NCBI RefSeq assembly: GCF_003111665.1
Contig: NZ_CP022188.1
Location: 4,030,001-4,094,000, forward strand
Reading direction: 5' to 3'
Length of the DNA stretch: 64,000 nt
From: Parazoarcus communis
Lineage (GTDB): Bacteria; Pseudomonadota; Gammaproteobacteria; Burkholderiales; Rhodocyclaceae
Below the pieces are notes generated by a model. That model worked only from the letters and a program-made list of their open reading frames with translations. It was not told the DNA's origin and searched no databases. Each line of letters begins with the position of its first letter. Position 1 is the first letter of the stretch. Shown in pieces: positions 1-37,328 of the stretch. The position numbers and the translations under genes are program-made.

Positions 1-84
1 ATGGATTTGTATGCTCATTCACATGCTGATGAGATTACTAGTTCCCCGGTCACTCGGCGACCGCGCGAATTTGAATCCAATTAA
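1..84 (+). CDS. possible 3' end of an unidentified gene (partial)
   Basis: An open frame of 27 codons runs from the first base of the window to a TAA at 82-84. It could be the tail of a gene that starts outside the window or chance. The short peptide has no recognisable domain, and the local base composition is less GC-rich than the rest of the window. Confidence 0.2.
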   Translation: MDLYAHSHADEITSSPVTRRPREFESN

Positions 85-29897: not shown

Positions 29898-30944
29898 TTA
29901 CTTCTTGCTCTTGCTCTTGCCCTTGGTCACGACGGGCAGGGAATCGAGCACCGCGACCAGCTCTTTTGCCGAACGCTCGCCCAGCAGTTTGAGACCGGCA
30001 CGCAGCACTTCGGACTTTGTTGCCAGCCGTCCGGCACGTGCCAGCGCGGTACGTATTTTCTTGAGCGCAGCCTGCTCGCTCTTGGGCATCGAGAACGAAT
30101 CCCGTACCACCTTGCCCGCCTTTTCCTTCTTCGGCTCGACGCTCGCAGCCGGGAGCTTGATGACTGCAGGACCGGCGACCGACTTCTTCGCACCGCCGGA
30201 CGTGCCGGCCACGGCTTTCGCAGGCGCCACCTTCGCCGCCGCTGTTCCAGCGGACTTGACCTTGGCCGCCTTGGGCTTGGCTGCTGCCGGTTTAGCTGCT
30301 GCCGGTTTGGCTGCGGCGGATTTGGCCGCTGCCGGTTTGGCCGCTGCCGGTTTGGCCGCTGCTGGTTTGGCCGCTGCTGGTTTGGCCGCTGCCGGTTTGG
30401 TTGCTGCCGGTTTGGTTGCTGCCGGTTTGGTTGCTGCCGGTTTGGTTGCTGCCGGCTTGGTTGCTGCCGGCTTGTCCTCTGCTTTCGCCCCGGCTTCGGC
30501 CTTGGGCTTTACAGGCGTCTTTTCTGCAGCGGGTTTCGCCACCGCAGCACGCGTCGCGACCGCGGCAGGCTTGGCCGGCGCAGGCTTCTTCGCCGCGCTT
30601 GCACGACGTCGGGCCGGGGCCTTGGAAGTCGCCGTCGCAGCGGGTGCGGCCGCAGCAGCAGACGCGGGAGCCGTCACCCGCTCGGCAGCCGGCTCGGCAG
30701 CCGCGACCGGTTTCGCCGCGACCGGCGCTGCCGGCGCAGGCTTTGCTGTCGCGGGCTTGCGAGCACGCGGGGCCCGCGGCGTCACGGGCTTTGCCGCGGG
30801 CTTCGCGGCAGGCTTCGCAGCCTGAGCGGACCTGGTCGCCGTCGCCGCGACCGCGGCCACTTCGGGCAAGCGTCCGGCAACCGAGGCGTCTTCCTGCTTG
30901 AGCGTGGCACGCAGTGCCGACTGCGTCTTGTTGCGTGTGGTCAT
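29898..30944 (-). CDS. Lys/Ala/Pro-rich repeat protein with ribbon-helix-helix-like C-terminus (AlgP/histone H1-like)
   Basis: The 348-residue product is dominated by a basic, disordered, low-complexity region, including about thirteen tandem pentapeptides (KPAAT five times, then KPAAA and one KSAAA) near residues 155-220, as in AlgP and histone H1-like proteins that bind DNA non-specifically. The last 68 residues (from about 281) are different: RDSFSMPKSEQAALKKI, then LATKSEVLRAGLKLLGER. The strand-helix-helix layout with SEVLRAGLKLL resembles ribbon-helix-helix DNA-binding domains. A GGAG sequence inside the upstream parA-like gene serves its ATG, which overlaps that gene's stop. Function is unknown. 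Confidence 0.7.
   Translation of the reverse strand: MTTRNKTQSALRATLKQEDASVAGRLPEVAAVAATATRSAQAAKPAAKPAAKPVTPRAPRARKPATAKPAPAAPVAAKPVAAAEPAAERVTAPASAAAAAPAATATSKAPARRRASAAKKPAPAKPAAVATRAAVAKPAAEKTPVKPKAEAGAKAEDKPAATKPAATKPAATKPAATKPAATKPAAAKPAAAKPAAAKPAAAKPAAAKSAAAKPAAAKPAAAKPKAAKVKSAGTAAAKVAPAKAVAGTSGGAKKSVAGPAVIKLPAASVEPKKEKAGKVVRDSFSMPKSEQAALKKIRTALARAGRLATKSEVLRAGLKLLGERSAKELVAVLDSLPVVTKGKSKSKK
30280..30475. repeat. 15-bp tandem repeats inside the AlgP-like gene
   Basis: About thirteen 15-base units (plus-strand core GCTGCCGGTTTGGYT) encode the KPAAA/KPAAT pentapeptides. Neighbouring units are nearly identical at the nucleotide level and group into two blocks differing in the Thr/Ala codon, a sign of recent unit duplication. 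Copy number is likely to vary between strains without breaking the frame. Confidence 0.85.
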
Positions 30945-33840: not shown

Positions 33841-35643
33841 TCAGTGCCCCAGCCAGCCCTTCCGCAGACGGCGCACCGAGGCTGCAGCCTTCTCGTCCAC
33901 GGCCAGTTTGACCGCATCACTGGCGGCCGCTGCGAGTTCGACATCGAAGCACATCAACTCGTCGCGGCGGAAGGCGTGGACTTCGATTGAATCACCCGCC
34001 TGATGACGCTCGAGCATGCTGTCGAGGTTGGCAGCGCTGACCTTGAGCCCGTCGATGGCGAGCAGCACATCACCCGCTGACAGCCCGGCGAGCTGAGCCG
34101 CGCCGCCGTCATACGCGGTCGCAATCTTCGCTTCGCCCTTTCCGTTTCCACCCGCGAGCTTGATGCCGAGCGTTGGCTTCGCGCCCGGCGCCTCGGGCTG
34201 ATACGCCACGCCGAAGGGCTTGAGCAGGCGTGCCAGCGGCAGGTCGTCCGTACCTTCGACCGCCTTGCGCAGCCAGCGCGCCAGCCGTGCGCCACAATCC
34301 TTGCCACCGACCTCCTCGACGATGGCAAAGATGCCGTCCTCGGCAACACCGACGCCGGTCTGTCCATGACGCAGCCACAGCAGCCGCATCACGTCATCCA
34401 GGCTGCGCTTGCCGCCGGTCTCGCTGCGCAGCTGCAGGTCGAGCGCGAGTGCGATCAGCGAGCCCTTGGCGTAGTAGCTGACGATTGCGTTCGGCGAATT
34501 TTCGTCCTGCCGGTAGTACTTGCTCCAGGCCTCGAACGAGGATTCCGCCACGCTCTGCCGATGACGACCAGGACCGCGCAGTACGGCAGAGACCGTCTTG
34601 CCCACCAGACCAAGATAGTCGGCCGGCGAGATCACGCCGGAGCGCACCAGCACCAGATCGTCGTAATAGGACGTGAAGCCCTCGAAGGCCCACAGCAGCC
34701 GGGTATAGTTTTCGACCGCCAGGTCGTAGGGCACGAAGGCGGCAGGTTTGATGCGCTTGATGTTCCAGGTGTGGAAGTATTCGTGACTGCACAGGCCAAG
34801 GAAGGTCTTGTAGCCGTCGGGCAGACCGGTCATGCCTTTCCACGGCAGGTCTGCCCGGCTGGCCAGCAGCGCGGTGGATGCGCGGTGTTCCAGCCCGCCG
34901 TAGCCGTCACCGACCAGCTGCGTCAGAAAGACGTAATAGTCCATCGGCGGCGGCGCACCGAAGAGCTCGATCTGGAATTGGCAGATGCGTTCGAGATCGG
35001 CTGCAAGGCGCTCGGTATCGCAGTCGTGGCGACCGGTGAGCACGATATCGTGGCGCACCCCGCCCGCCTCGAAATCGGCAAGCGTGAATGTGCCCATCTC
35101 GACCGGGTGATCGACCAGTTCGTCGTAATTCTCCGCCCGGTACAGCCCGAATCCGTAAGCAAACGCCGCACCGATTTCGCCGCTGGCACGCGGCAGGGCA
35201 GTCGCCACTTTCCAGTCGCGATAAGCCATGCCTTCCGGGCTCTCGATCTCGACCAGACAGGGCCGGTCGGTGCGTCCCTCCACTGCAAGAAACACACTGG
35301 TGCCGTTGAAGAAGCCATGCGTCTGGTCAAGATGAGCCGCGCGCACCGACAGATCCCATGCATACACTTCGTAGTGCAGCGTCAGCGGTTTTCCCGCTGC
35401 AAGCCCGGTGACGAGCCAGGTGTGCTTGTCGAGTTTTTCGACCTTCGCGGCCTTGTCACCCGACTCTGCGCGCAGGCTCACGACGTGACGCGCGAACTCA
35501 CGAATCATGTAGCTGCCCGGAATCCAGGCCGGCAGGCTGAAACGCTGGCCTGCGGGGTCCGGATCACTGACCGTGCAGCGCAGCTCGAACACATGGGCTT
35601 CAGGACGCGAGGGGCGGATGAAATAGCGGATCGGGGCAGTCAT
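33841..35643 (-). CDS. M61-family metallopeptidase with PDZ domain
   Basis: The 600-residue protein matches the glycyl aminopeptidase (M61) family: an N-terminal beta domain (IRYFIRPSRPEAHVFEL...), a zinc-binding HEYFH in GLCSHEYFHTWNIKRIKP (about residue 285) with a downstream Glu in LWAFEGFTSYYDDL, and a C-terminal PDZ domain (about 500-575, GLSAGDVLLAIDGLKV). No signal peptide is evident. Members cleave N-terminal Gly or Ala from peptides. The length is normal. Confidence 0.88.
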   Translation of the reverse strand: MTAPIRYFIRPSRPEAHVFELRCTVSDPDPAGQRFSLPAWIPGSYMIREFARHVVSLRAESGDKAAKVEKLDKHTWLVTGLAAGKPLTLHYEVYAWDLSVRAAHLDQTHGFFNGTSVFLAVEGRTDRPCLVEIESPEGMAYRDWKVATALPRASGEIGAAFAYGFGLYRAENYDELVDHPVEMGTFTLADFEAGGVRHDIVLTGRHDCDTERLAADLERICQFQIELFGAPPPMDYYVFLTQLVGDGYGGLEHRASTALLASRADLPWKGMTGLPDGYKTFLGLCSHEYFHTWNIKRIKPAAFVPYDLAVENYTRLLWAFEGFTSYYDDLVLVRSGVISPADYLGLVGKTVSAVLRGPGRHRQSVAESSFEAWSKYYRQDENSPNAIVSYYAKGSLIALALDLQLRSETGGKRSLDDVMRLLWLRHGQTGVGVAEDGIFAIVEEVGGKDCGARLARWLRKAVEGTDDLPLARLLKPFGVAYQPEAPGAKPTLGIKLAGGNGKGEAKIATAYDGGAAQLAGLSAGDVLLAIDGLKVSAANLDSMLERHQAGDSIEVHAFRRDELMCFDVELAAAASDAVKLAVDEKAAASVRRLRKGWLGH

Positions 35644-35702: not shown

Positions 35703-36275
35703 AGGAGCTGCCTATTTATTGTGCAGCACGAAAAAATCCTGTTGCTTCAAGGCGTTTGAACGCTCCCTCACACCTTGTCCACAGCTTCGCCCACGGCCTT
35801 CGGGGATAAACCCGATGGGTCGGGCCTGTTTTCCACACCCCGGGCAAGAAATTCGTGCGAATCGCCACGAAAAACACTGGACAAACGTCAAACCTGGCCA
35901 AAAGACAGGTCTGAGCCTCCACTTCTCCGGACTTGCCTCATTTTTAGGCAGACGATGAAATCCCTTTCGATTCAAGGAGGTTTCGGCTTCCCTCACACCT
36001 TGTCCACAGCTTCACCCACGCCGCACGGGGATAAACAGGATTGATCGAACACACAATCCACAGGCCGCGCAGAAAATACGTAGAAACCGCAGCAGAAAAC
36101 AGTGGACAAATCGCCAACAAGGCCCGGAAACGGTCTTGAAACCACCATTTCATGGGACTGCCTCATTTTTAGGCAAGCCTCGAAAAGCCTGTTGATTCAA
36201 GGCCGTTGTGGACTCCCCCACACCTTGTCCACAGCTTCATTCACCTTGATCGTGGATAAACACAGTTGATCAAAG
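35703..36275. repeat. 225-bp tandem repeats with DnaA-box-like motifs (two full, one partial copy)
   Basis: Two complete and one truncated copy (about 35703-35927, 35928-36152, 36153-36275) repeat with a period of 225 bases. The invariant core CACACCTTGTCCACAGCTTC recurs at 35769, 35994 and 36219. Each full copy carries four DnaA-box-like 9-mers at fixed places and on alternating strands: TTGTCCACA; the complement of GGGGATAA or GTGGATAA; TTTTCCACA or CAATCCACA; and the complement of a TGGACAA. Copies are otherwise diverged, so the 9-mers are the conserved part. On the minus strand two copies also carry related 68-69 codon frames. Function is unknown. Confidence 0.8.
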
Positions 36276-36365: not shown

Positions 36366-37328
36366 ATGCCCCCATTCAACGCCGTCTTCCTGGACATCAC
36401 CCCGCTCGACCAGAACGATCTCGACCTTACTTCGCTGCGGGAAGCATTTTCTGGCTTTCAGACTTACGAGCACACCCCGGCTGAGCACGTGATCAGCCGC
36501 CTGCAGGGGGCCCAGGTCGCGATCGTCAACAAGGTCAATCTGACGGCTGAAGTGCTTGCGGCCTGCCCGCAGCTTGAACTCGTGCTGGTTTCCGCGACCG
36601 GTCTGAACAACGTGGATCTGGACGCGGCGAAGGCACGCGGGATTGCCGTGTTCAACTGTCAGGGCTACGGCACCGCCACCGTTGCGCAACACACGCTGAT
36701 GCTGTTGCTGGCGCTGGCGACCCGGCTACCGGATTATCAGGCTGCGGTAAAAGCGGGCCAATGGCAGCAGGCAAAGCATTTCTGTCTGCTCGATTTTCCG
36801 ATTGTCGAACTGGCGGGCAAGACCCTTGGCGTGCTTGGCCAGGGCGAACTCGGCGGCGCAGTAACGCGACTGGCCGAGGCATTGGGCATGCGCGTGGTGG
36901 TCGGCAATCTTCCCGGGCGTCCGCCGAAGGTGGATCGTCTGTCCCTGGATGCCTTGCTGCCCGAGGTCGATGCGCTCACGCTGCACTGCCCGCTCACCGA
37001 GCAAACTCGCAATCTGATCGGCGCACGCGAGCTCGCACTGATGAAACCCGGCGCCTTCCTGATCAATACCGCGCGTGGCGGACTGGTTGAAGAGCAGGCG
37101 CTGGCCGATGCGCTGCGACGCGGACATCTCGGCGGCGCCGCAACCGATGTGCTGATTCAGGAGCCCCCGGTCGCTGGCAACCCCCTGCTGGCCGACGACA
37201 TACCACGCCTGATCGTCACGCCACACAGCGCCTGGGGCAGCCGCGAGGCACGTCAGCGCATCGTCGATCAGCTGGTCGAGAACACGCACGCGTTCAGGTC
37301 GGGGAACGCGCTGCGTCGGGTTGCGTGA
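36366..37328 (+). CDS. D-isomer-specific 2-hydroxyacid dehydrogenase (hydroxypyruvate reductase-like)
   Basis: The 320-residue NAD(P)-dependent enzyme has the Rossmann motif GVLGQGELGG (about residues 148-157), the catalytic Arg in LINTARGGLVEE and His in VTPHSAWGS, with a GTATVAQHTLML segment before the cofactor domain as in glycerate dehydrogenases (HprA-like). The exact substrate (glycerate/hydroxypyruvate or another 2-oxo acid) is not certain. The ATG at 36366 follows an AAAGG sequence and lies 90 bases after the 225-bp repeat block. Confidence 0.85.
   Translation: MPPFNAVFLDITPLDQNDLDLTSLREAFSGFQTYEHTPAEHVISRLQGAQVAIVNKVNLTAEVLAACPQLELVLVSATGLNNVDLDAAKARGIAVFNCQGYGTATVAQHTLMLLLALATRLPDYQAAVKAGQWQQAKHFCLLDFPIVELAGKTLGVLGQGELGGAVTRLAEALGMRVVVGNLPGRPPKVDRLSLDALLPEVDALTLHCPLTEQTRNLIGARELALMKPGAFLINTARGGLVEEQALADALRRGHLGGAATDVLIQEPPVAGNPLLADDIPRLIVTPHSAWGSREARQRIVDQLVENTHAFRSGNALRRVA

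Follow-up and report, generated by a model that had tools for sequence, protein, structure and literature searches.

What does a short intergenic array do, in which 9-mers resembling DnaA boxes recur with a fixed period far away from dnaA? The resetting of DnaA between initiations has been worked out mainly in E. coli, and how far the DnaA-reactivating elements called DARS reach beyond the relatives of E. coli has been little tested. The array described here lies in a 64,000-nucleotide stretch of DNA, below called the window, which corresponds to positions 4030001-4094000 of a complete 4,886,933-base chromosome.

Structure of the array

The 225-bp repeat array spans positions 35705-36262 and consists of three copies of a module of about 100 bp, arranged head to tail; copy 3 retains the initial part of the 225-bp unit and lacks the rest. 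The periodicity reported in the first-pass annotation was reproduced exactly: the 20-mer CACACCTTGTCCACAGCTTC starts at 35769, 35994 and 36219, in steps of exactly 225. The array was absent from the output of Tandem Repeats Finder. It is intergenic between two divergent genes; beyond the hydroxyacid dehydrogenase gene comes a DNA polymerase III alpha-like gene, and dnaA is, as the annotation had said, not nearby but 2.0 Mb away. The sites predicted from the sequence are listed below together with the flanking genes.

33841..35643, minus strand: M61 glycyl aminopeptidase gene (Pfam), flank, given as context outside the element
35710..35724, no strand: Fis-like site, copy 1 (GCCTATTTATTGTGC), matching GNNYANNNNNTRNNC at all 6 specified positions, block -65..-51
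35745..35757, plus strand: IHF-like site, copy 1 (CTTCAAGGCGTTT), 6 of 9 to WATCARNNNNTTR, A-tract just upstream, TCA and T fixed in the family
35775..35783, plus strand: predicted DnaA box III, copy 1 (TTGTCCACA)
35787..35795, plus strand: DnaA box II, copy 1 (TCGCCCACG), degenerate; distant families have TTATCCACA at the same place
35801..35809, minus strand: DnaA box I, copy 1 (minus strand reads TTATCCCCG), facing box II head to head across 5 bp
35829..35837, plus strand: accessory DnaA box A, copy 1 (TTTTCCACA), seen in the genus of the window
35876..35884, minus strand: accessory DnaA box B, copy 1 (TTGTCCAGT), seen in the genus of the window
35935..35949, no strand: Fis-like site, copy 2 (GCCTCATTTTTAGGC), 5 of 6
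35970..35982, plus strand: IHF-like site, copy 2 (ATTCAAGGAGGTT), 6 of 9
36000..36008, plus strand: DnaA box III, copy 2 (TTGTCCACA)
36012..36020, plus strand: DnaA box II, copy 2 (TCACCCACG)
36026..36034, minus strand: DnaA box I, copy 2 (TTATCCCCG)
36054..36062, plus strand: accessory box A, copy 2 (CAATCCACA), weaker
36101..36109, minus strand: accessory box B, copy 2 (TTGTCCACT)
36160..36174, no strand: Fis-like site, copy 3 (GCCTCATTTTTAGGC), 5 of 6
36195..36207, plus strand: IHF-like site, copy 3 (ATTCAAGGCCGTT), 6 of 9
36225..36233, plus strand: DnaA box III, copy 3 (TTGTCCACA)
36237..36245, plus strand: DnaA box II, copy 3 (TCATTCACC)
36251..36259, minus strand: DnaA box I, copy 3 (TTATCCACG)
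36366..37328, plus strand: D-isomer 2-hydroxyacid dehydrogenase gene (Pfam), flank, given as context

Each copy thus has the order Fis-like site, IHF-like site, box III(+), 3 bp, box II(+), 5 bp, box I(-). The four box-like 9-mers of the first-pass annotation, at 35775(+), 35801-35809(-), 35829(+) and 35876-35884(-), are present with the same offsets in copy 2; its list contained boxes III and I, while box II (+12 to +20) and the Fis-like and IHF-like sites were absent from it.

Whole-unit identity among the three copies is 0.49-0.64, and 0.71-0.75 over the first 107 bases. Columns identical in all three copies make up 9/9 of box III, 8/9 of box I and 5/9 of box II, whereas none of the five columns of the gap between boxes II and I is identical, so the earlier remark that the spacers have diverged more than the motifs holds. 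The lengths are constant though the letters vary, which is expected of protein sites kept in register. Box II is degenerate in the window, copies 1, 2 and 3 having 5, 6 and 6 of 9 positions of TTATCCACA (by eye). Copies 1 and 2 agree in their accessory boxes (A 6/9, B 8/9), neither of which is preserved in copy 3. The motif TTNTCCAC occurs 11 times in the window vs. 4.7 expected, a count reached by one of 100 shuffles, and six of the 11 occurrences are concentrated in 485 bp. For TTGTCCACA with at most one mismatch the window as a whole showed no enrichment (13 vs. 9.4, 10 of 100 shuffles reaching 13).

Elsewhere in the window, at 30277-30474, there is a 15-base tandem repeat of 13.2 copies inside a minus-strand ORF rich in Ala, Lys and Pro.

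Conserved anatomy of the unit

Fifty-one units were extracted and 44, which align without gaps, were used for the consensus; 43 were retained in alignment A1, which omits units of G139, G312, G125 and G118 plus three near-duplicates. Counted from the first base of box III as 0, the unit has GCCTnATTTTTGnGC at -65..-51, an A-tract at -44..-40, TCA at -28..-26 and T at -19 in the place of IHF, CACA at -6..-3, then box III at 0..8, box II at 12..20 and, on the opposite strand, box I at 26..34. The first-pass annotation had suggested comparing the conservation of the 9-mers with that of the rest of the unit, and the comparison came out in their favour: each of the 24 columns invariant among the 43 aligned units belongs to a proposed site or to the ACA that immediately precedes box III.

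The identity of the two upstream blocks was evaluated with the Fis and IHF consensus strings as given in the accessible part of PMC4245941, with R permitted for the second A of IHF. In 86 units, taken from loci retrieved by core-only patterns, the best fit among approximately 105 upstream positions was at -65 for Fis (z 5.5) and at -30 for IHF (z 5.0). Both scores exceeded each of 200 composition shuffles, and permuted motifs equalled the observed fit in 0.2-0.3% (Fis) and 0.8-1.4% (IHF) of 20000 trials.

A broader alignment, A2, comprised 59 of 108 nonredundant units; Pseudomonas units, other less similar ones and some near-duplicates were omitted by choice. The 108 units were chosen by a core regex with at most two substitutions, therefore their core conservation is partly by construction, but the upstream blocks are free of this effect. 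At the IHF place A2 has TCAnGGnnTTG, and in one distant genome (L257) the match to WATCARNNNNTTR at this place is perfect. Distant families have TTATCCACA as box II, and all three of their boxes are near consensus at the same places.

Comparison with DARS1 and DARS2 of E. coli

According to the available parts of the literature, DARS1 and DARS2 share a core of three equally spaced DnaA boxes, in which box I is opposed to boxes II and III, and the head-to-head placing of boxes I and II is essential. DARS1 is described there as active in vitro without added factors, while DARS2, in the accessible text of PMC4245941, depends in addition on IHF bound at IBS1-2 and on Fis bound at FBS2-3; the core comes first, then IBS, then FBS. 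The III-II pairs of both elements are printed in Table 1 of PMC11317965, and the same source, as far as available, states that E. coli DnaA favours box pairs 2-3 bp apart. DARS2 boxes I-III lie between the replacement primers of PMC4585315 (mapped by eye on the part of that paper at hand), and these primers together with the Table place the K-12 DARS2 core at L174 3136-3170.

Written as III-II-I, the K-12 core is TAATACACA-3-TTATCCACA-5-AGTGGATAA in DARS1 and TTCTTCACA-3-CTATCCACA-5-GGTGAATAA in DARS2, and one window copy reads TTGTCCACA-3-TCGCCCACG-5-CGGGGATAA, the other two being alike. The window units thus have the core geometry of DARS1, from which they differ by their IHF-like and Fis-like sites. 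With DARS2 they share the spacing and orientation of the boxes, the order of IHF and then Fis upstream of box III (with a window IHF match of 6/9), and further DnaA boxes nearby. The scan of K-12 DARS2 found IHF at -71..-59 (one mismatch, same orientation), with a partner 3 bp beyond, and the sole perfect Fis consensus at -125..-111, which we infer to be FBS2-3. There are also differences: the window unit is about 100 bp long vs. 455 bp for DARS2, has one IHF-like site instead of two, and carries Fis and IHF nearer to the core (IHF to box III 17 bp vs. 58); its box II is degenerate and it occurs in tandem copies. The window units and their relatives have no fixed distance from dnaA; a conserved distance is reported for E. 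coli strains (PMC5010248, in the part available) and lies outside the mechanism.

A profile, R2, for which 59 units and no E. coli DNA were used, was run on 200 kb of K-12 DNA containing oriC, datA, DARS1 and DARS2. Its top match was DARS1 (15.8 bits, E 0.0013) and the second DARS2 (10.2 bits, E 0.073, not significant alone), both in register; the remaining three of the five matches (6.6 bits) were also in the DARS2 region, and there was no match in the oriC or datA stretches. The narrower profile R1 found neither DARS1 nor DARS2 in these 200 kb. When 99 gap pairs were scored on the same DNA, the top triple had gaps (3,5) and 22 of 24, although among the 12 triples scoring at least 20 gaps (3,5) and (1,5) were equal, with 2 each.

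Because box I is opposed to boxes II and III with the same gaps of 5 and 3 bp as in DARS1 and DARS2, and the IHF- and Fis-like sites follow the order of DARS2, we think that the array probably consists of three head-to-tail compact DARS2-type elements, which reactivate DnaA by regenerating ATP-DnaA. A Fis homologue was found in 29 of 29 genomes; the one in the window's own genome (C1:2650774-2650989) shows 46% identity across 72 residues. With 55% identity to its E. coli counterpart, the DnaA of this genome retains D269, L290, R281, R285, R334 and F46; DnaA L290 and D269 are named for DARS2 and DARS1 in the part of the literature available to us.

Occurrence in other genomes

By DNA similarity the array was found in 6 of 61 genomes, the own genome included. 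Pattern search showed that Parazoarcus communis SWub3 carries the same unit as a relative (G004) within the genus of the window. The core-only pattern TTRTCCACAG N7 CAC N7 GNGGATAA, with one mismatch, matched 73 of 297 family genomes in 22 of 68 genera, and the reversed control gave 0 in every row. Tandem copies, spaced 134-225 bp, occur in seven genera (g1, 225; g27, 193-204; g85, 173-183; g61, 156-205; g69, 134-135; g82, 194; g74, 151 bp). With a second pattern 56 stretches were found in named genomes, including Aromatoleum, Zoogloea, Denitromonas, Thauera and Pseudothauera; it also matched Paraburkholderia, Noviherbaspirillum, Paucimonas and Pseudomonas, and its single matches in Sphingomonas, Roseomonas and a Cytophagaceae MAG may be due to chance.

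The profiles extended this range, with E-values that are rough throughout. R1 matched 108 of 297 family genomes at E <= 1e-6 (25 of 68 genera) and 19 of 274 genomes of the class at E <= 1e-3. In the order, which is GTDB Burkholderiales as read from the genome names, R2 matched 317 of 399 genomes at E <= 1e-4, in 138 of 159 genera, any overlaps with oriC being counted in. The cores of 26 order loci scored 17-23 of 24, and at the fixed offsets at least 7/9 of IHF was seen in only 6 and at least 5/6 of Fis in only 9 of them; in some loci these blocks are displaced by one base. The upstream scores are partly circular because R2 contains the upstream blocks. Clustered core units, in which inspection by eye showed no clear IHF or Fis blocks, were also seen in a gammaproteobacterial MAG (L221 811-1948) and in a Pseudomonas contig (L190 563-2952).

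The order matches have recurrent neighbours: in 20 flanking frames at 12 loci, xseA adjoins the match at four loci (L239, L247, L253, L260) and hemE at two, L248, where priA is on the other side, and L255. The window's own genome has a single unit-like element between hemE and priA (29.3 bits, L017 5545-5641; G000:C1 about 1169544-1170640), with the neighbours found at L248 and approximately 17 kb from dnaA; it may represent a further DARS or belong to an origin. Three more single, weaker unit-like elements were seen in this genome, at G000:C1:3321460-3321557, 4766409-4766513 and about 4570317-4570416.

A candidate oriC unlinked from dnaA was also noticed: clusters of TTATCCACA and AT-rich stretches around rdgC (L019 14850-15110 and 17600-17860), at about 1.281-1.284 Mb of G000:C1, near a GC-skew switch and some 95 kb from dnaA.

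The search of relatives proposed in the first-pass annotation recovered the module in many genomes of the family, and it revealed no constant chromosomal place. In the 11 of 29 genomes that could be placed, the fraction of the half chromosome from dnaA ranged over 0.25-0.97, with 0.79-0.82 in g1, 0.34-0.36 in g27, 0.65-0.97 in g69 and 0.25 in g85; the 11 include G312 and G139, which have single weak units each, and G236, placed on contig 1 of 2. The array has an M61 gene beside it in g1, g69, g74 and g82; in g1 and g69 a gene resembling that of DNA polymerase III alpha is close by as well. Among the 17 of 40 flanking ORFs that were scanned, the flanks were LysR and ArsA in g85, an amidohydrolase in g61 and a methylmalonyl-CoA mutase in g27.

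Alternative explanations

The first-pass annotation had put datA-like and DARS-like sites forward together. A datA-like or plain titration array would sequester DnaA or, together with IHF, stimulate hydrolysis of the ATP bound to DnaA; the multiple DnaA boxes with an IHF-like site are features shared with datA, which also has a double box of the III-II kind (PMC11317965, available part), and tandem copies would suit titration. However, the essential boxes of datA all point in one direction, as described in the accessible literature, whereas box I of the window is opposed to II and III across a gap fixed at 5 bp, the letters of which are free; moreover, a Fis-like block belongs to the window unit and R2 passed over the datA stretch. 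We therefore retain the DARS half of that proposal, by box geometry and the order of IHF and Fis, and regard the datA half, disfavoured by the box directions, as unlikely. That the boxes form a DnaA-controlled promoter for the M61 peptidase, the hydroxyacid dehydrogenase or the downstream DNA polymerase III alpha-like gene seems improbable to us. The array does lie between divergent genes, double DnaA boxes are reported for E. coli promoters (same source, same part), and the M61 and polymerase genes recur beside it in the genera named above, but the scanned flanking proteins are different in g85, g61 and g27, and some order-wide matches are by xseA or hemE.

DnaA boxes with an IHF-like site would also fit an alternative or cryptic replication origin, as had been suggested earlier, but in 26 sampled stretches the GC skew switches sign at 1.286-1.32 Mb and 3.62-3.84 Mb, not at 4.07 Mb, and the E. 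coli oriC stretch is missed by R2; we find an origin here scarcely credible. Very improbable, too, is that another protein uses sites merely resembling DnaA boxes: boxes II and I deviate from TTATCCACA in the window's family, yet at the corresponding positions in distant families all three boxes come near the consensus, and the geometry equals that of DARS.

Some other ideas were set aside. The Fis-like block was considered as a hairpin or RNA, its arms covarying in a few copies (by eye); Rfam at gathering thresholds gave two tRNAs in the window and nothing at the array. For a plasmid origin, the array had no match in the plasmid collection. For a dif-linked site, a gamma-type dif pattern with at most 3 mismatches had no match in the own genome, and another dif is possible.

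Proposed mechanism and significance

From the observed architecture we infer that the array would bind DnaA and promote the release of ADP. DnaA would occupy boxes III and II as a double box, and ADP-DnaA molecules on boxes II and I would meet head to head, by which ADP would be loosened. IHF may bend the DNA and Fis may switch the site on in fast growth. Apo-DnaA would then depart and bind ATP, so that more ATP-DnaA would be available when initiation next occurs. The presence of three copies would increase the capacity, and the extra boxes between the copies might act like boxes IV-VI of DARS2.

According to the available part of PMC4245941, conservation of Fis and of the DARS2 core is specific to those gamma-proteobacteria that are related to E. 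coli. At the level of sequence, the Fis homologues and the order-wide R2 matches speak against this restriction. Our literature search found no paper joining DARS2 with Betaproteobacteria, and among the matches listed for DARS, DnaA, IHF and Rhodocyclaceae none combined them with Rhodocyclaceae; literature on 'DARS-like' with 'DnaA box' concerned V. cholerae. Since a review citing Fujimitsu 2009 says, in the excerpt available, that DARS1- and DARS2-like sequences are conserved in many proteobacterial species, and the species in Fujimitsu 2009 may include betaproteobacteria, what we regard as new is the compact cassette of Fis, IHF and core in tandem, and not DARS outside enterics as such.

With a confidence a little short of even, we suggest that DARS-type reactivation is old and order-wide, with recurrent single elements beside xseA and hemE-priA, and that this family condensed Fis, IHF and core to a cassette of about 100 bp and amplified it into tandem arrays at new locations; reactivation capacity would then be set by the number of copies and not by chromosomal position. 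The ungapped comparison across genera amounts to a natural mutagenesis of DARS, in which the spacings (3 and 5 bp) were held and the free letters were revealed. A three-copy intergenic target, together with relatives in 138 of 159 genera of the order, makes the reach of DARS directly testable.
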